Below the pieces are notes generated by a model. The model did not search any database, was not told the DNA's origin, and saw nothing but the letters and a program-made list of their open reading frames with translations. From Winogradskyella sediminis (GTDB lineage: Bacteria; Bacteroidota; Bacteroidia; Flavobacteriales; Flavobacteriaceae): a stretch of DNA of 64,000 bases. The first letter of the stretch is position 1, and every line of letters begins with the position of its first letter. The DNA is taken from positions 661,606 through 725,605 of the forward strand of contig NZ_QUNH01000002.1 in assembly GCF_003387355.1 (NCBI RefSeq), written 5' to 3'. Shown one piece after another: positions 51,229 through 58,093 of the stretch. A program made the translations under genes and the position numbers.

Positions 51229-51633
51229 TTAAGATTGTTGTTGTAGCCTTAAGCGTAATAATTTCCAATTCATATAATGTGCTAAAGCCAGTAATACAGC
51301 GCCGATAACAGTATTGATAATTTCCCATAAATGGGTAAAGTGAAGTCGTCCAATAGCTATAAATACAAAGCCTAATCCTGCAATTATTAGAGGTTTAGTC
51401 TTATGATGCTTATTTTTGTAACTTGGCCAAAGTGAGGTTAGCAAAAACACAATACCTAAGCCTATAAATATCCATTCAATGATTGGGTTATTAAAAAAAT
51501 ACAGACTACTCATTGAGGTAAATGAAAGCAGTATTGGAAAAACAGCGCAATGTATTGCACAGATTAACGAGCTTGATAGTGCAATGAGATCTAAGGTGTT
51601 ATTTTTTGATGTATTATTCACTTTGTGAGTCAT
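51229..51633 (-). CDS. MerC domain-containing membrane protein
   Basis: This 134-aa protein has four hydrophobic segments and a MerC-like Cys pair in the first span (SLICAIHCAVFPILL, Cys24 and Cys28). MerC transports mercuric ions in mercury operons, but stand-alone MerC-like proteins beside Fur-type regulators probably handle other thiophilic metals such as zinc or copper. It shares a divergent promoter region with the Fur-family gene and probably belongs to its regulon. Confidence 0.85.
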   Translation of the reverse strand: MTHKVNNTSKNNTLDLIALSSSLICAIHCAVFPILLSFTSMSSLYFFNNPIIEWIFIGLGIVFLLTSLWPSYKNKHHKTKPLIIAGLGFVFIAIGRLHFTHLWEIINTVIGAVLLALAHYMNWKLLRLRLQQQS

Positions 51634-51670
51634 ATTATTTATAAAGGCGACATCGTCGCATTACTTAGTT

Positions 51671-51700
51671 TTGCAAATATATTATTAATTTATAATATTG
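51671..51700 (+). promoter_or_regulatory. Promoter and likely operator of the Fur-family gene
   Basis: TTG (51671-51673), a 19-nt spacer and TAATATTG (51693-51700), one mismatch from consensus. The region is a dyad bounded by TTGCAA at 51671-51676 and 51698-51703, with a third TTGCAA at 51722-51727. A metal-responsive repressor bound to the dyad would close both divergent promoters. The operator role is inferred. Confidence 0.6.
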
Positions 51701-51703
51701 CAA
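51674..51703 (-). promoter_or_regulatory. Promoter of the MerC-like gene
   Basis: On the minus strand TTG (51703-51701), a 19-nt spacer and TATATTTG (51681-51674) match the Bacteroidota consensus perfectly. It occupies almost exactly the same bases as the promoter of the divergent Fur-family gene. Confidence 0.75.
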
Positions 51704-51743
51704 TGTTGTTGGAATAGGTAATTGCAAATAATTCGCATTAAAA

Positions 51744-52118
51744 ATGAAAAGAAGAAATACACCTACTAAAGAGGCTGTTTTAAATATTTTAACCGAATCC
51801 GGTAAAGCTATGAGCCAAGATGCGATAGAACGAAAAATAGCAATTGATATTAATAGGGCTACGATTTATCGGGTTTTAAATCGTTTTTGTGATGATGGCG
51901 TACTTCATAAGGTTGTTGCAGAAGATGGAAAACAGTATTTTGCATTATGTAATGGTTGTGATGAAACCCATCAAAAGCATCAACATTTTCATTTTAAATG
52001 TAAGGTGTGTGAAACGATAGAATGTTTACCAAGTGAAGTCAATTTCTCTATTCCTGAAGGTTATTTGGTCGAAAATGTAAATTGTGTTTTAACCGGAGTT
52101 TGTGACACCTGTTCTTAA
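51744..52118 (+). CDS. Fur family metal-dependent transcriptional regulator
   Basis: This 124-aa protein has a winged-helix N-terminus (TPTKEAVLNILTESG, INRATIYRVLNRFCDDGVL), a His-rich regulatory segment (H76-x2-H79-x-H81-x-H83) and two CxxC pairs (Cys86/Cys89 and Cys120/Cys123) that would hold the structural zinc. It is short for Fur and could be Zur-like or respond to another metal; the sequence does not decide. The gene overlaps the convergent MbnH-like gene by 4 bp and is divergent from the MerC-like gene. Confidence 0.88.
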   Translation: MKRRNTPTKEAVLNILTESGKAMSQDAIERKIAIDINRATIYRVLNRFCDDGVLHKVVAEDGKQYFALCNGCDETHQKHQHFHFKCKVCETIECLPSEVNFSIPEGYLVENVNCVLTGVCDTCS

Positions 52119-53140
52119 TTATCTAAACCTGTAAAATCGGTATCGCTTAAGGTTTTCATAAAAGCAATTAAATCTGTTTTTTCTTGAGCTGTAAGTGGAA
52201 TTCTGTTGTTATTATCTTTTAAAATAGGGTCTAGGTTATCTGCCTCTAATACTCCGTTATCTAAATAATCGAGTAGGTCTTCTAAAGTTTCAAATTGTCC
52301 GAAGCTACCATAAGGAGCAGTATATTCTATATTTCTTAAGCTAGGTACTCTAAAACGCATGTAATCTTCCACAAGTCCTGTGATTCTGGCACGTCCTCCT
52401 TCTTCAGCATCCGGATTTATAGGAAACCCAATATTTCTAAAACTTTGATCTGTAAATAATGCTGTGCTGTGGCAGCCTATACATTTGTTTTGAAAAACAG
52501 TATATCCTTGTGCTTCACTTTCTGTAAATGTTTCTCCTTCGTTTCGTTTAACTCTATCGTATTTACTGTTTGAAGTTATAAGCGTGTATTCATATTGCGC
52601 AATACTATTATAAATACCATCTGCCGTAATACCTTCTCCTTTAAAAGCTTTATTAAAGAGCTCTATATAAGAAGGGTCGCTTTCAAGTTTACCAATAACC
52701 TCTAAAATAGAGGAGTCCATTTCTTCGTGTGTAATGATAGGAACCAATGGTTGGTTTTCTAATTGAAGTTTATTACCATCCCAATTATAAAATTGCATAA
52801 AAGCCATATTTTGTACAGGTGGAGCATTTCTAAGTCCTATTCGTCCCTCAATACCAATAGCTTTTGGATTATGATCTGCAAATGCATTTTCTGGAATATG
52901 ACAACTAGAGCATGAAATGGTATTATCTGTACTCAATTGCGTATCGAAAAATAATTTTTTACCGAGCTCAACTCCGTATTGGGTAGGCATATTGTTATAA
53001 ATTGAATTATTTAATTCAGGAAAGTCTAATGGAATTTCTAATTCTATTTCAGGGTTATCATAAACTATTAAATTAGACTGATCACTAGCACATCCTGTCA
53101 GTAAAAGCATCAATGCGATATGGCTTAATATATTTTTCAT
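52115..53140 (-). CDS. MbnH-like diheme cytochrome c peroxidase family lipoprotein
   Basis: The start is taken at ATG 53140; a GTG directly precedes it. The protein (341 aa) has a lipobox (LLLTGCAS) and two c-heme sites, CSSCH and CIGCH (residues 77-81 and 220-224), with LRNAPPVQNMAFMQFYNWDG and the late FRVPSLRNIEYTAPYG typical of the diheme peroxidase/MauG superfamily. Next to an MbnP-family gene this points to the MbnH branch, which oxidises a Trp of MbnP to kynurenine. A general peroxidase is the alternative. It is separated from the MbnP gene by a strong hairpin. Confidence 0.85.
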   Translation of the reverse strand: MKNILSHIALMLLLTGCASDQSNLIVYDNPEIELEIPLDFPELNNSIYNNMPTQYGVELGKKLFFDTQLSTDNTISCSSCHIPENAFADHNPKAIGIEGRIGLRNAPPVQNMAFMQFYNWDGNKLQLENQPLVPIITHEEMDSSILEVIGKLESDPSYIELFNKAFKGEGITADGIYNSIAQYEYTLITSNSKYDRVKRNEGETFTESEAQGYTVFQNKCIGCHSTALFTDQSFRNIGFPINPDAEEGGRARITGLVEDYMRFRVPSLRNIEYTAPYGSFGQFETLEDLLDYLDNGVLEADNLDPILKDNNNRIPLTAQEKTDLIAFMKTLSDTDFTGLDN

Positions 53141-53162
53141 CACTACAATTTTAAATAGGATT

Positions 53163-53203
53163 AAAGAGTCGGCTTACGTCTTTCTTCTTAAAGCCGACTC
53201 TTT
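53163..53203 (-). terminator. Strong hairpin between the MbnP and MbnH genes
   Basis: AAAGAGTCGGCTT (53163-53175) pairs with AAGCCGACTCTTT (53191-53203), a perfect 13-bp stem with a 15-nt loop. The following T-run is short, so it may be a partial terminator or an mRNA-stabilising hairpin that lowers or separates MbnH expression. Confidence 0.7.
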
Positions 53204-53213
53204 ACATTAAAGT

Positions 53214-54080
53214 TTAATTTTCCACAGAAGTCACAGAAAACATACCGCTAAGGTCTGTTGTACCATTACCACCAATATTATCTACAAACTTTTCCATTTC
53301 GGTAGCTGTATGAGCACTTGGTGTGGCATTGTTACTAATATCCTCAGTAGACACTAAAGTTATTGTATGACTGTATCCACTAAGTAAATAATCAAAATCT
53401 GCTTTGATTGATATAATAGGAGCATTACTGCCAACTGTAGCGGTTGTAGGTAGTTCTAAGGTAATGTCTCTATAAGCATCAACACCTTGGGTATAATTAC
53501 CTTCTTCACCTTCTAATGTACTTCCTGAATGGAAGGATAGTTCCTTATTATCGGTATCGTAGAAACCTTCAATTTTTGTAAAACGGTATCCCGTTCCCCA
53601 TTCCCAATGCATTTGTGTGTCGTTGGCACCTGCATTGTTATAAAATGTTGGGAAGCTTACTTCGTCTAGGTTATTTAAATCCGATCTTACGCCTAAACCA
53701 AATTTTATTTCGGTATAATCTCCAACAGGAATCTCATTTAAGACATAATTCAAGGTTTCTGGTTTAGACTGATCTACAACTGTGGCACCATTGTCTAAAT
53801 CATTAATATTATACGGAATCTCATCACCATTAGCTTTGATAAGTCGAATATTACTTATCACATATTTTAATTCTGAAAAGTGATGAACTTGTCCGGCATC
53901 AGAGGTGTTTATTGTAGCTGTGCTAGAGCTTGCGTCACCGAGCACTAAAGGTGTTTCATTAAATGTATTGCTAAATTCTAGAGTAACGTTATTGGCTACA
54001 CGATTTTCGTCATCGCTGCTACAAGAAAGAAAAGCAAAGATTACTGTGGTTAATAAAATATATTTTTTAAGATGTTTCAT
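53214..54080 (-). CDS. MbnP-family copper-binding lipoprotein
   Basis: This 288-aa protein has a lipobox (FAFLSCSS, Cys20). The MbnP-family centre is present: FSELKYVISNIRLI, then MHWEWGTGYRFTKIEG (Met157, His158, Trp159, Trp161) and a late SGYSHTITL. In characterised MbnP and the related MopE/CorA proteins a Trp in this kind of region is converted to kynurenine, which takes part in copper binding; here Trp159 or Trp161 is the candidate. It overlaps the upstream CNGKCH protein gene by 14 bp. Confidence 0.85.
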   Translation of the reverse strand: MKHLKKYILLTTVIFAFLSCSSDDENRVANNVTLEFSNTFNETPLVLGDASSSTATINTSDAGQVHHFSELKYVISNIRLIKANGDEIPYNINDLDNGATVVDQSKPETLNYVLNEIPVGDYTEIKFGLGVRSDLNNLDEVSFPTFYNNAGANDTQMHWEWGTGYRFTKIEGFYDTDNKELSFHSGSTLEGEEGNYTQGVDAYRDITLELPTTATVGSNAPIISIKADFDYLLSGYSHTITLVSTEDISNNATPSAHTATEMEKFVDNIGGNGTTDLSGMFSVTSVEN

Positions 54081-54504
54081 TTTTATAATTGTTTATTAAT
54101 AATTGAATCGTTTTGTATTCTACTGATGTTAGAGTCTCATTTAATAGCGGAGGTGGTTTAAGAACTTCTAAATAGGGTTCTGAATGCTGAAACTCTATAT
54201 AAATTAATTTTACTTTTATTTGAGTGATATTAAAATTAGAAATCTTAAATTCTGAATCTTGATAGTACACCAAATCAAAATTTTTGGTATTCATTATTTT
54301 TTCAGAATCCGTGTGCTCGGTCTCTTGTAGCTCTTTAGTTAAATGACATTTTCCATTACATTGAAGCTCTGGCTTGGCTTTATTGATACAAAATTGTTCT
54401 GTAATGGCTTTTTGGTTGAGTTTAAAGTTCATAATAACGATTGCTTGTTGCGATACCACAAATAGAAAGATAGACGTTAATATGAGACTAAAAACTTTAT
54501 ACAT
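54067..54504 (-). CDS. Small CNGKCH-motif protein, 145 aa
   Basis: An N-terminal hydrophobic segment (about 5-24) acts as signal or anchor. A Cys motif follows: Cys39-x9-Cys49-x3-Cys53-His54, in FCINKAKPELQCNGKCHL, then TKELQ. A second conserved patch is VYYQDSEF, and the C-terminal region has LKPPPLLNE. A paralogue with identical Cys spacing is encoded at 57728. I know no function. The three Cys and the His suggest metal binding, probably copper given the neighbours. It sits 4 bp after the receptor gene. Confidence 0.8.
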   Translation of the reverse strand: MYKVFSLILTSIFLFVVSQQAIVIMNFKLNQKAITEQFCINKAKPELQCNGKCHLTKELQETEHTDSEKIMNTKNFDLVYYQDSEFKISNFNITQIKVKLIYIEFQHSEPYLEVLKPPPLLNETLTSVEYKTIQLLINNYKNETS

Positions 54505-54508
54505 TTAT

Positions 54509-56497
54509 TTAAAAATTGATTTTTAAAGAGGTAAAAATATTGCGTCCCATTCTCGGAATATTTCCCCAATCGGCATAAGTACTATAGTATTCATTGAGTA
54601 TATTTTCCGCTCCAACCTGAATTACTGTTCTGTAGTCTTTAATTTTAAATGTGTAATCCGCAGATAGATTCCAAATCGTATAGGATGGTGTTAGGTCTTC
54701 TCCATATTCTGGACTGTAATGCACTTGTTCTACATCACCATTGATAGATGTTTGAACATTAAATTGGTTCCACTTGTAATGCATCGAGGTCTGGTAGCTC
54801 AATGGCCTAATAAAAGGTAAGTTATTAGCGTTATTGTCTTTGCCACGTGCATAGGTGAGATGGCCTTTCCAATGCAAATTATCTAAAATGGTATAGCTTC
54901 CATTCAATGAAAAATTTAATAACGTAGAATAATCTAAAGCGGTATAGCCTTTGACACCAACAGATTGGTAATTCATGGGACTACCTAGACTTAAAATTCG
55001 ACCTATAATATAATTTTGAATATAGAAATAATTGACTTTTGCTTGCAGACTAAACGTATGATTTTTAAAACCTGCACTCGCATTAGCCTCGTACGAGATT
55101 TCATTTTTAAGATCAGGATTACCTATATAGTCGTAACGGTCAAAACTGTTGTATATATAATAGCCATAACCTTCAGAAACCGATGGTGCTCTATGTCCAT
55201 AACCTCCTCCTACAGAAAAATCAAAGTTCTTAATATTTAATTGGTAGCTAGTATGTAAGCTTGGTAATACTCTCGTTTTTTCTTGAGGTGTTCCTGGGTG
55301 GAAAATCCAGTTAAATTCTGCATATTTAGAACGGTTGTAATGTATTCCTAAAGATCCTCCAAAATTCAGTTGACTATTATCTGAAATTTCCCATGCGTTA
55401 TTTACGGATAGACCAGCAAATGTAGTTGTGACTTCAGGCCAACTATAAGCAAACATGCTGCGCTCGCTGCGGTCTTGAGGATACATACGCATTTCTGCCG
55501 TTGATAAATTGTTGTAAGCATTGAGTTGTATTTCTGAATTAAAATTATGACGCTTAATATGAGTCTTAGAGAGTAAGCCAAACGTTGTACTCCAGCCAGG
55601 CATATCCATGTGTACTAAGTTTTCTGGACGTGTAGTGTCATCCATATAATGCTCAATAGCATTGAAATAAATTTTGGTATCTAGGGCTCTAAACAAACCT
55701 TCTTCAAACAATTGTTTATAGGTGGCTGAGGTTATGAGCGCTCTAGACAACCACAGATCCATAGGCAGAGCAGGATAACCAACATCTTTGGCTTCATCAT
55801 AGATGGCTTCAACTTTTAAAGAGGATAAGGTACTTGTTTTATAGGCAACACCAAGTGAGGCATTAAATTTAGTGAATTGGGAGTGTGGTACTTCATCTGA
55901 GTTGCCGTCATTGTAGTTTTCTGCTTTTCTATATGCTAAACTTCCATCTACCACAAGCTTTTCACTAGTGTAGGCGGCACTTGCTAAATTGAAAAATTGC
56001 TTATTGTTCGATTCAAATCCGGTTTGGTAGGCGCCATTCCATTGTTTATAAGGATGAAAAGGAGTGTGCTTACGTTTCAAATCTATACTTCCGGCTATTG
56101 TTGCTCCATGCATATTTCCATCTTGGCCAGATTTTATATCAATTTTAGACAAGTTATTGCTTTCAACATACGAGGTAATAGGATCCATTTTATCCGTACA
56201 TGCACCAAAAATATGCATCCCATCGATAGTAATGGTGGAGCGCTCAGAGCTCATATTATTTAATAAAGGTTCCCAAGCGTAAGCTCCGCGCTTTATAAAA
56301 CTAATTTGGTCTGATGACGCTAAGAATTCATCAACTGAAACGGCCATTTTCATATCTGTTTCAATTTTTTTCTTAATCACCGTAATAAGTTCAACTTCGT
56401 CTAAAGCAACGATACTATCTTTCTTTTTCTCAGTTTGTTGAGCAGTAGAATAGCGGAAAGAAATGAGTAATAGGGTAAATAAAAGAAATGTTCTCAT
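54509..56497 (-). CDS. TonB-dependent copper receptor, OprC/NosA-like
   Basis: This 662-aa outer-membrane receptor has a signal peptide (ending STAQ), a plug domain and a beta-barrel ending in Phe (IFTSLKINF). The plug has GMHIFGACTDKMDPITSYVE with Cys100 and Met104, a CxxxM pattern. The barrel has Met246 (YPALPMDLW) and His283-Tyr-Met285 (AIEHYMDDT). OprC of Pseudomonas binds copper through CxxxM and HxM elements (Cys143, Met147, Met286, Met325 as I recall), and the Met-to-Met spacing of 39 is the same. No N-terminal carboxypeptidase-like domain or SusD partner is present, so it is not a glycan receptor. Confidence 0.9.
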   Translation of the reverse strand: MRTFLLFTLLLISFRYSTAQQTEKKKDSIVALDEVELITVIKKKIETDMKMAVSVDEFLASSDQISFIKRGAYAWEPLLNNMSSERSTITIDGMHIFGACTDKMDPITSYVESNNLSKIDIKSGQDGNMHGATIAGSIDLKRKHTPFHPYKQWNGAYQTGFESNNKQFFNLASAAYTSEKLVVDGSLAYRKAENYNDGNSDEVPHSQFTKFNASLGVAYKTSTLSSLKVEAIYDEAKDVGYPALPMDLWLSRALITSATYKQLFEEGLFRALDTKIYFNAIEHYMDDTTRPENLVHMDMPGWSTTFGLLSKTHIKRHNFNSEIQLNAYNNLSTAEMRMYPQDRSERSMFAYSWPEVTTTFAGLSVNNAWEISDNSQLNFGGSLGIHYNRSKYAEFNWIFHPGTPQEKTRVLPSLHTSYQLNIKNFDFSVGGGYGHRAPSVSEGYGYYIYNSFDRYDYIGNPDLKNEISYEANASAGFKNHTFSLQAKVNYFYIQNYIIGRILSLGSPMNYQSVGVKGYTALDYSTLLNFSLNGSYTILDNLHWKGHLTYARGKDNNANNLPFIRPLSYQTSMHYKWNQFNVQTSINGDVEQVHYSPEYGEDLTPSYTIWNLSADYTFKIKDYRTVIQVGAENILNEYYSTYADWGNIPRMGRNIFTSLKINF

Positions 56498-57420
56498 TAG
56501 AATAATATGTCTATATACAGTTCGCTGCGTTCTCCTTCAATTCCTGGTGTAAAATCAGTAGATACTTCAGTGCCTTTAATTATGGCTCCAAATTGATTTT
56601 GTAATCTAAAATTTAATGTCCAATTTCCTGTCATCGTATAGTTGACCACTCCATAATATAGGCCATCTTCTCTTTGAATTAAATCTTGATTGTTTGGTGA
56701 AGAATGATTTCCCATTGAAGGTTCTGGCATTCTTGGGTCTAATAATAAGGTGTAGTCTTCGACTTCTGAATATGAAAACTGAGAAGGGTCGGGAAATGTT
56801 CCGGCATCACTAGTCGGTGAATTATAAGTGTATATGCCTGCAACCAATTCGTTCTCTGCAATTTTAGGTTTTTGCGGAGCCACCAACGCAATAAAGTATT
56901 GTTCACCATCATCGGCTGTAAAGGCTGTCATGTTTAAATTCATATTACCTTGTTCTTCAACTGTAATAGTCTTGTTTACAGTGTAAGTCTGACCGTTGTC
57001 AGTGAATGAGATATAAATTGTCCAAGTTTCTAACTCACTCGATTCATTAGTAAATACGGCATAACCACTATAATAATCATCTTCAGTATTTGCATCTAAA
57101 TTGTAGCGATGAGGACATGAAGAATGATTGCCATTGTAATTTGTAAGTATGGGTAAAAAGGTGACAGCAGCGGAATTGATAGTGTCGTTGGTTTCGGTAT
57201 TTATAATGGTTAATCGAAGATCATTATAACCCTTATAAAATGTGCCGTTAAGAGCTGTTATAATGATTTTGTAAGAACCTTCATTTATTGAAACGGCTTC
57301 TTCGTAATCAAAATGCTCTATGACAATAGTGCTAATTTCAGATTCGTAATCCGTTTTATCTAGGGTACATGATGTGGCCACAATAGCAAATGTAGCCACG
57401 AAGCACATGATTTTTTTCAT
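56497..57420 (-). CDS. Lipoprotein with Met/His motif, possibly YtkA/FixH-like
   Basis: The start is set at ATG 57420; a GTG lies one codon before. The protein has a lipobox (IVATSCTL). Two similar beta-rich halves each look like a YtkA/FixH-type domain. Potential metal ligands occur as NHSSCPHRY in the first half and DPRMPEPSMGNHSSPNN in the second. Such Met/His clusters are known from periplasmic copper-handling proteins. The stop overlaps the receptor start by one base. It may pass copper to or from the receptor (inference). Confidence 0.72.
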   Translation of the reverse strand: MKKIMCFVATFAIVATSCTLDKTDYESEISTIVIEHFDYEEAVSINEGSYKIIITALNGTFYKGYNDLRLTIINTETNDTINSAAVTFLPILTNYNGNHSSCPHRYNLDANTEDDYYSGYAVFTNESSELETWTIYISFTDNGQTYTVNKTITVEEQGNMNLNMTAFTADDGEQYFIALVAPQKPKIAENELVAGIYTYNSPTSDAGTFPDPSQFSYSEVEDYTLLLDPRMPEPSMGNHSSPNNQDLIQREDGLYYGVVNYTMTGNWTLNFRLQNQFGAIIKGTEVSTDFTPGIEGERSELYIDILF

Positions 57421-57423
57421 CAC

Positions 57424-57727
57424 TTTTAGGTGTTATATTTAAAAAAAAATAAACTTATAAAATGTAGCAGTTGTGCATAAGATTATGAAGTGTTTTATTG
57501 CTCATAAAAGACCTTTTACCTTATAACAAACACTTAACAGAAACTTTGATTCTTGTTAAGACTACGAAAAATGTAGACGACTTAAAATGTATGGCATCTC
57601 TAGTGTTATTTCAATTTTATAGGTGTTGAAATACAATACTGAGTATACAGAATGATACATATAACTTCTTTTCCCAAGGATTTTGCTCAGTAAAAAATGC
57701 AATACATTAATAAGTATATATTTAGGC
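57424..57727. other. Intergenic region of the copper locus, no gene
   Basis: About 300 bp separate the two minus-strand genes. The only structure seen is a 7-bp inverted repeat, CTTAACA (57533-57539) with TGTTAAG (57554-57560). A promoter for the lipoprotein-receptor operon is expected here, but no good consensus was found. Confidence 0.5.
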
Positions 57728-58093
57728 TTAAACTAAAGGAGGATGGAAGATGAAATTCATAAAATCGAATTCATAAATGATGTGATATGACGATTCAATT
57801 TTTAGGTTTTTTTCGGTTGGGATAATAACGATTCGGTTTTCAAATATATCTTGAAAGAAAACCACTTGTTGTTCTGAAGATGATGAATGGTTTTTATCGT
57901 TACTTTTATCAGAATCTGAGGCTTTAGCTAGTTCTTTTTTTAAATGACATTTACCATTACAAGCCATTTGAGGCTTATCCTTATTGACACAGAGCTCATT
58001 TTTAATATAATCGTAAAACGCAGCATATTCCACAAAGGGAATTGTCGGTTTCAAAAGCATAAATAATGCTAAAAATAGGGTTGCTGTTTTCAC
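57728..58093 (-). CDS. Small CNGKCH-motif protein, 121 aa (paralogue)
   Basis: The only suitable start is GTG at 58093; the signal-like segment VKTATLFLALFMLLKP follows. The Cys motif is Cys35-x9-Cys45-x3-Cys49-His50 (LCVNKDKPQMACNGKCHL, then KKELA), the same spacing as in the 145-aa protein at 54067. A Ser/Asp/Lys-rich linker, VVFFQDIFE and a FHPPLV end follow. It is the first gene of the minus-strand copper locus, separated from the next by about 300 bp. Function unknown. Confidence 0.78.
   Translation of the reverse strand: MKTATLFLALFMLLKPTIPFVEYAAFYDYIKNELCVNKDKPQMACNGKCHLKKELAKASDSDKSNDKNHSSSSEQQVVFFQDIFENRIVIIPTEKNLKIESSYHIIYEFDFMNFIFHPPLV

Follow-up and report, generated by a model that had tools for sequence, protein, structure and literature searches.

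A putative OprC-type copper-scavenging operon with lipoprotein, CNGKCH and MbnP/MbnH partners in Winogradskyella sediminis

Organisation of the locus

The stretch of Winogradskyella sediminis DNA analysed here, hereafter the window (64,000 nucleotides; contig NZ_QUNH01000002.1, positions 661,606 to 725,605), carries at positions 51229-58093 a cluster of eight open reading frames (ORFs), which were all confirmed, with their strands, as an earlier preliminary description had reported them. The eight genes form two units, i.e. a six-gene block on the minus strand (58093 down to 52115) in the order CNGKCH-2, methionine/histidine (Met/His) lipoprotein, TonB-dependent receptor, CNGKCH-1, MbnP and MbnH, and a divergent merC/fur neighbour, which probably stands apart (Table 1). 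We read the block as an outer-membrane copper-scavenging operon, a variant in Bacteroidota of the OprC type of copper import, and give this reading a probability of about 0.72.

By ORF coordinates, mbnP overlaps the CNGKCH-1 gene by 14 bp and the receptor gene overlaps the lipoprotein gene by 1 bp; since neighbouring genes overlap, a single transcript would fit the block. A second promoter is possible because a gap of 304 bp separates CNGKCH-2 from the lipoprotein gene. The true start of mbnH may be the ATG that follows the GTG of its frame, and fur is convergent with mbnH, with an overlap of 4 bp. As for an operator of the operon, no palindrome was spotted, by eye and without a motif program, in the TTAGG...AAA stretch 5′ of CNGKCH-2, which is common to the relatives.

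Table 1. Genes and features at positions 51229-58093 of the window.
Feature	Position	Strand	Description
CNGKCH-2	57728..58093	-	121 amino acids, hydrophobic N-terminus, Cys35/Cys45/Cys49 (CNGKC), PP at the C-terminus; leads the block; Pfam/NCBIfam family: none
Met/His lipoprotein	56497..57423	-	YtkA-like C-terminal domain (DPRMPEPSMGNHSSPNN, TMTGNWTLN); accompanies the receptor throughout
OprC-like TonB-dependent receptor	54509..56497	-	Ligand residues C100, M104, H283, M285
CNGKCH-1	54067..54504	-	145 amino acids; paralogue of CNGKCH-2, between receptor and mbnP
MbnP-family lipoprotein	53214..54080	-	WxW (W159, W161) and His184
MbnH-like di-haem protein	52115..53143	-	CSSCH and CIGCH haem sites; frame opens GTG then ATG
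Fur-family regulator	51744..52118	+	Neighbour, probably outside the copper unit; possibly Zur-like
MerC-like membrane protein	51229..51633	-	Divergent from fur; neighbour, probably outside the copper unit
TTGCAA inverted repeat	51671..51703	+	Promoter region of merC-fur; kept in 5 Winogradskyella relatives; candidate Fur operator

An OprC-like receptor with conserved ligands

In a profile search of the PDB, chains of OprC alone were matched at E≤0.001 (6/6 sequences, best 110.8 bits), and the profile alignment paired the OprC segments gaCpnrMD and HIMD with gaCtDkMD and HIMD of the receptor. With the predicted model of the receptor (predicted local distance difference test, pLDDT, 83.4), the top 28 Foldseek matches were all OprC, at template modelling (TM) scores of 0.80-0.82 by query length and 16-18% identity in the structural alignments, followed by PhuR and ZnuD at 0.78.

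The copper ligands of OprC are C143, M147, H323 and M325 (PMC8610252). The corresponding ligands of the window receptor, an OprC-type CxxxM of the plug and HxM of the barrel wall, were kept in 118/118 aligned receptors, as were M297, M299, M336, M338 and M348; 80 of the 118 had been collected by patterns containing C100, M104, M297 and M299, and for these positions the free evidence is therefore the other 38 receptors (window included), while none of the patterns included H283 or M285. Judged from their conservation, the five methionines could form a path like that of OprC. A receptor broken by an in-frame stop (L041) was excluded from the receptor alignment, the tree and the 118-receptor check.

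Distribution of the module

A family survey was made of 199 genomes of the same family, sampled evenly out of a larger group. The receptor, called at E≤1e-60, was found in 40 of these, 10 at 61-100% identity (own genome counted; close group) and 30 at 35-45% (distant group). Loci of 9-18 kb were read for the window and 38 others; one genome (G041) had a short contig and no long locus read, and was covered by the receptor, lipoprotein and CNGKCH searches. Genes for receptor, lipoprotein and CNGKCH protein occurred together in all 39 loci and side by side in the 40th genome. An independent profile search for the lipoprotein hit exactly the 40 genomes that have the receptor, one of which gave an additional partial match. 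The alignments of receptors and lipoproteins were built from 30 of the 39 loci and that of CNGKCH proteins from 43 of 52 collected sequences; the residue checks were repeated on the larger sets of 118 receptors and 52 CNGKCH proteins. The 10 members of the close group came out together with a long branch (100/100 support) in a tree of 43 receptors; with five OprC-like receptors placed outside, they lie within the remaining receptors, the root being drawn at the midpoint. No copy of the receptor turned up in a search of plasmids.

A species scan, with one genome per species, covered 84,980 species and yielded 560 confirmed loci, of which the best 80 were kept; being chosen as the best of 560, these stand for the receptor clade of the window. 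By identity they were led by Winogradskyella (82-85%), followed by Flavobacterium, Maribacter, Sphingobacterium, Chryseobacterium, Myroides, Polaribacter and others. In this set of the best 80 of 560, the lipoprotein gene was adjacent to the receptor gene in 80/80 and MbnP and MbnH were present in 80/80, and this co-occurrence argues that the gene grouping is not due to chance. A CNGKCH gene followed the lipoprotein gene in 76 of the best 80, the contig ending past the lipoprotein in the remaining 4, and stood directly between receptor and MbnP in 33/80.

The neighbourhood survey, of the kind that the preliminary description had called for, found the module again in both samples. The gene combination is not confined to this locus; the receptor-lipoprotein-CNGKCH module is widespread in Bacteroidota, the attachment of MbnP/MbnH or of nos genes being its variable part. 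In the literature no description of the lipoprotein and CNGKCH partners or of the whole module was found, in a search outside which most subscription journals lay.

Lipoprotein and CNGKCH partners

The window lipoprotein reached 21.9 bits against the YtkA-like Pfam family PF13115, below the gathering score of 25.9, and a YtkA match at E≤0.01 was obtained for 28 of the 30 aligned lipoproteins, the window protein among them. Conserved features were the lipobox Cys, an HSCP-like segment, DPRMP..MGNHSSPNN and the TMTG.W stretch, and the predicted model was all-beta and mostly confident (pLDDT 87.9). The protein is probably surface-exposed; export to the surface is suggested by the acidic residues that many members carry after the Cys, which resemble the known surface-export signal of Bacteroidota.

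The CNGKCH proteins shared C...CxGxC and a late PP in 52/52 collected sequences. No Pfam or NCBIfam family fitted more than one of the 43 aligned members, single matches lying near chance level, and neither CNGKCH-1 nor CNGKCH-2 of the window had a convincing match in these databases. CNGKCH genes lay near the receptor in 40/40 receptor-bearing family genomes, and members of the family occurred in at least 116/199 genomes, by a search that scored at most 22 candidates per genome. These proteins probably act as a periplasmic thiol or Cu(I) relay. A SCO1/SenC gene adjoined the CNGKCH gene in some loci of the best 80 of 560 (one tested).

Twenty CNGKCH loci away from receptor and MbnP were picked by eye, i.e. 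non-randomly, from the pool of 116 genomes. Their neighbours, of types family-tested on one representative each, were an OprC-like receptor in 5, a siderophore-type receptor with PepSY in 8, a Met/His-rich barrel in 5, and none of these in 2. The other OprC-like receptors adjoining CNGKCH genes had CxxxM and HxM in 5/5. At L135:7541-11137 a siderophore-type receptor and a PepSY membrane protein stand beside the CNGKCH gene, so that the family may have tasks beyond copper. The Met/His-rich outer-membrane barrel beside the CNGKCH gene at L140:7428-8444, with a Phenol_MetA_deg match, is a possible further copper channel.

MbnP and MbnH

The window MbnP passed Pfam PF20243 (124.9 bits, gathering score 27) and fell below the curated TIGR04052 (58.7 against 140 bits). 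WxW was present in 90/90 receptor-linked MbnPs, and in a wider alignment of 20 MbnPs W159 and H184 were kept in all 20 and W161 in at least 90%. The MbnP profile matched 7l6g (metallo-mystery pair protein) weakly at the WxW motif (E 0.012), and the single-sequence search of the PDB with MbnP gave no match. MbnH matched CCP_MauG with 166.2 bits (cut-off 25.6), scored 198.5 against the 362.85 bits of the curated TIGR04039, and belonged to a set in which 89/89 proteins had two CxxCH haem sites. Its first PDB match was a di-heme peroxidase (183.6 bits), and the second (179.5 bits) was 6e1c, named di-heme enzyme, which we take to be MbnH.

MbnP and MbnH adjoined the receptor in 10 of the 39 family loci, exactly those of the close receptor group. 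At 20 MbnP loci away from the receptor, also picked by eye and non-random, out of 99 genomes, MbnH stood beside MbnP in 20/20. The order CNGKCH-MbnP-MbnH-barrel-like protein was seen in 9 of these loci, and the other 11 adjoined genes read, without family search, as a sulphur-assembly operon, with no CNGKCH among the genes shown. The barrel-like protein after MbnP/MbnH in the 9 loci has about 330 amino acids, a CDFCGC motif and no family match (L100:5835-6830).

Given these partners, the receptor might import a copper chelate, such as a foreign methanobactin or another chalkophore, instead of ionic copper, with MbnP and MbnH handling release as in methanobactin operons. MbnP/MbnH often neighbour the methanobactin receptor MbnT (PMC3621798), and CrtA of Bordetella takes in chelated copper (PMC12914433). 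We nevertheless regard chelate import as rather unlikely, since the ionic site of OprC is fully conserved and OprC is the sole profile relative with known structure, and since MbnP is not tied to the receptor, being present in 99/199 family genomes and next to this receptor in 10. The reported absence of methanobactin synthesis genes, a further point against a chelate, holds for MbnB, which had no match in the own genome; MbnB alone was tested, and MbnC was not searched.

Linkage to nitrous oxide reduction and probable copper users

At least two nos-type genes lay within 8 kb in 16 of 29 distant-group loci, always on the strand of the receptor and with the module on either side. Among the representatives tested, Pfam matches confirmed NosD, NosL and the NosZ propeller; NosF and NosY were assigned from matches of the ATP-binding cassette type and from context. 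A protein of about 205 amino acids between nosL and nosZ in nos-linked loci (L056:9027-9644) had no Pfam or NCBIfam match. In the family survey nosZ was present in 88/199 genomes at E≤1e-100; the own genome had no nosZ match at this threshold and encodes two COX1-type oxidases, which are probably its copper users, with nitrous oxide reductase in addition in the relatives.

The alternative that the block serves copper defence, by sequestration or export, has very little probability. It can draw on the weak match of the lipoprotein C-terminus to 9ll2 (E 0.0012; chain named copper resistance protein) and on ORFs with metal-ATPase motifs in the stretch read at 2/39 family loci and at 5/80 of the best 80 of 560. 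Such ORFs are, however, rare, and metal-ATPase pumps have a part in oxidase assembly as well. A supply role agrees with the OprC site of the TonB receptor and with the nos linkage of its relatives.

The merC/fur neighbour

Both neighbouring genes passed their Pfam families (MerC 83.3 bits, cut-off 27.6; FUR 41.5 bits, cut-off 23.1). Their inclusion in the system by the preliminary description was not upheld, as Fur lay near the block in 5 and MerC in 4 of the best 80 of 560 loci, all of Winogradskyella, in which fur stands beside a ZnuD-like receptor. In 5 of the 7 Winogradskyella loci within the best 80, fur (with merC in 4) was followed by a small protein, a 789-amino-acid receptor and two ORFs of the same cluster. 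These five receptors were 82-100% identical mutually; the one tested had ZnuD as best match both in the PDB and in NCBIfam (151 bits, cut-off 950), and the next ORF encodes a DUF4625 protein. One such zinc-type locus beside the copper block of a Winogradskyella relative (L154:14384-19037) comprises fur, merC, the ZnuD-like receptor and a DUF4625 His-rich lipoprotein, together with a 97-amino-acid protein with CAVC and a C-terminal PPP, the build of which resembles the CNGKCH proteins. The best match of the own genome to the 789-amino-acid ZnuD-like receptor had 29% identity and lay on another contig.

Fur matches occurred in 72 family genomes, of which 14 with an orthologue of ≥45% identity were read; the receptor of the block and MerC were not found in the stretch read in these 14. 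A flavin adenine dinucleotide (FAD) oxidoreductase with CPYCHGYE lay within three genes of the Fur orthologue in 12/14 (for example L121:156-1169), a link without clear metal. At L132 the Fur orthologue was three genes from a receptor with 70% identity to the ZnuD-like one, and at L036 two ORFs lay between mbnH and a more distant Fur homologue.

The TTGCAA repeats of the merC-fur region were conserved in five relatives and occurred nowhere else in the window. A loose TTGCAA pair matched the window twice, both times at merC-fur, and since 11/100 shuffles gave as many, the repeat rests on conservation and not on its count. A 19-base palindrome derived from the relatives had no match in the window with ≤3 mismatches. 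The idea that the Fur-family gene controls the entire locus was considered and dropped, on account of the poor linkage and of the missing repeat near the operon. The genes merC and fur are probably a separate, zinc-type neighbouring unit, for which a zinc role is likely.

A single zinc (or general metal) locus of all eight genes, controlled by the Fur-family regulator and with a zinc-importing receptor, is very unlikely. The adjoining merC and fur, here and in relatives, the ZnuD-like receptor on the fur side in Winogradskyella and the place of ZnuD among the next structural neighbours behind OprC would suit such a locus; the scarcity of fur and merC near the block in the best 80 of 560, the confinement of the TTGCAA pairs to merC-fur, the nos linkage of the related receptor group and the invariant OprC-type ligands argue against it.

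Discussion

Copper acquisition by an OprC-like receptor and its MbnP/MbnH, CNGKCH and Met/His lipoprotein partners, as first proposed from the window, is supported independently by PDB profile, predicted fold, ligands and co-occurrence. Several findings weigh against it. The receptor scored 88.4 bits on the curated model TIGR01778 (TonB-copper), missing the cut-off of 472.45, and slightly higher, 98.9 bits, on the haem/lactoferrin model; 30/30 aligned receptors matched TIGR01778 at E≤1e-10 and 27 of them the haem model too. The apparent affinity to OprC is accordingly one of profile match and of fold search with a predicted model, not of TIGR01778 score. For the lipoprotein, the fold search returned generic immunoglobulin-like and similar matches only (TM 0.15-0.28), and the CNGKCH profile was without a PDB match. 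Because the siderophore-type receptor with PepSY adjoins 8 of the 20 other CNGKCH loci, the CNGKCH family may not be copper-specific. The excess of nosZ in receptor genomes (31/40 vs 57/159 others, Fisher p 2e-6) comes from a test that ignores shared ancestry; nosZ was found in 27/30 distant-group vs 4/10 close-group genomes, and no nos gene lay within 8 kb in 10/10 loci of the receptor clade of the window, so that in this clade the copper link rests on the ligands and on relatedness.

From the conserved genes and ligands, the predicted fold and the linkage we infer the metal, the direction of flow, the protein locations and every transfer step of a copper import route. The lipoprotein would collect copper on its Met/His groups and hand it to the receptor, which would bind it at the OprC-type C-x3-M and H-x-M site and drive it inward with TonB energy. 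Membrane-anchored CNGKC proteins in the periplasm would accept Cu(I) on their cysteines and relay it onward, and MbnP would contribute a further step of binding or redox chemistry, perhaps at a tryptophan-derived copper site made by MbnH. A copper site of MopE involves a kynurenine derived from tryptophan (PMC3621798).

A broader proposal, which we advance tentatively and at somewhat less than even odds, is a general two-part copper importer of Bacteroidota, in which an OprC-like barrel is fed by an obligate surface lipoprotein as the copper counterpart of SusCD, and in which the CNGKC proteins would be the common periplasmic Cu(I) relay for several outer-membrane copper systems, including the supply of nitrous oxide reductase.

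OprC of Pseudomonas imports ionic copper, NosA is its orthologue, and the evidence on NosZ loading is conflicting (PMC8610252). The system described here is like OprC/NosA in predicted fold, CxxxM and HxM ligands, the extra conserved methionines and a link to nitrous oxide (N2O) reduction, as was proposed for NosA, where the evidence conflicts. It differs in its low sequence identity and in its lipoprotein and CNGKCH partners, none being mentioned for OprC in the available part of PMC8610252. With the MbnP/MbnH of methanobactin operons (TIGR04052/TIGR04039) it shares the adjacent pair, WxW, two CxxCH sites and a TonB receptor as neighbour; unlike these, the window pair misses both curated NCBIfam cut-offs, the receptor is OprC-like and MbnB has no match in the genome. 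The flavobacterial TonB receptor G2EC70 of Bizionia argentinensis has been noted as OprC-like with the ligand motif (PMC11213822). It resembles the present receptors in CxxxM-HxM, and its locus number is near those of CcoG, NosL and a P-type ATPase, which recalls the nos- and CcoG-linked loci of this study; compared by description, the accessible text of PMC11213822 treats the receptor alone and not lipoprotein, CNGKCH, MbnP or MbnH partners. CrtA (Bordetella BfrG) is likewise a copper TonB receptor tied to respiratory oxidases, and differs by a sequence cluster separate from OprC and by import of chelated copper (PMC12914433). The ZnuD zinc receptors have a related barrel and plug, and in Winogradskyella relatives a ZnuD-like receptor lies next door; the window receptor is closer to OprC and carries OprC-type ligands.

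The passage of copper across the Gram-negative outer membrane is poorly understood (PMC8610252, PMC12914433). The operon proposed here would be a conserved, testable copper system in a major phylum, with relatives genetically tied to N2O reduction, a greenhouse-gas sink, and it draws attention to the YtkA-like lipoprotein and the CNGKC proteins as two families of partners. Since Bacteroidota account for many of the N2O reducers that have clade II NosZ, the copper supply of this phylum bears on N2O consumption.

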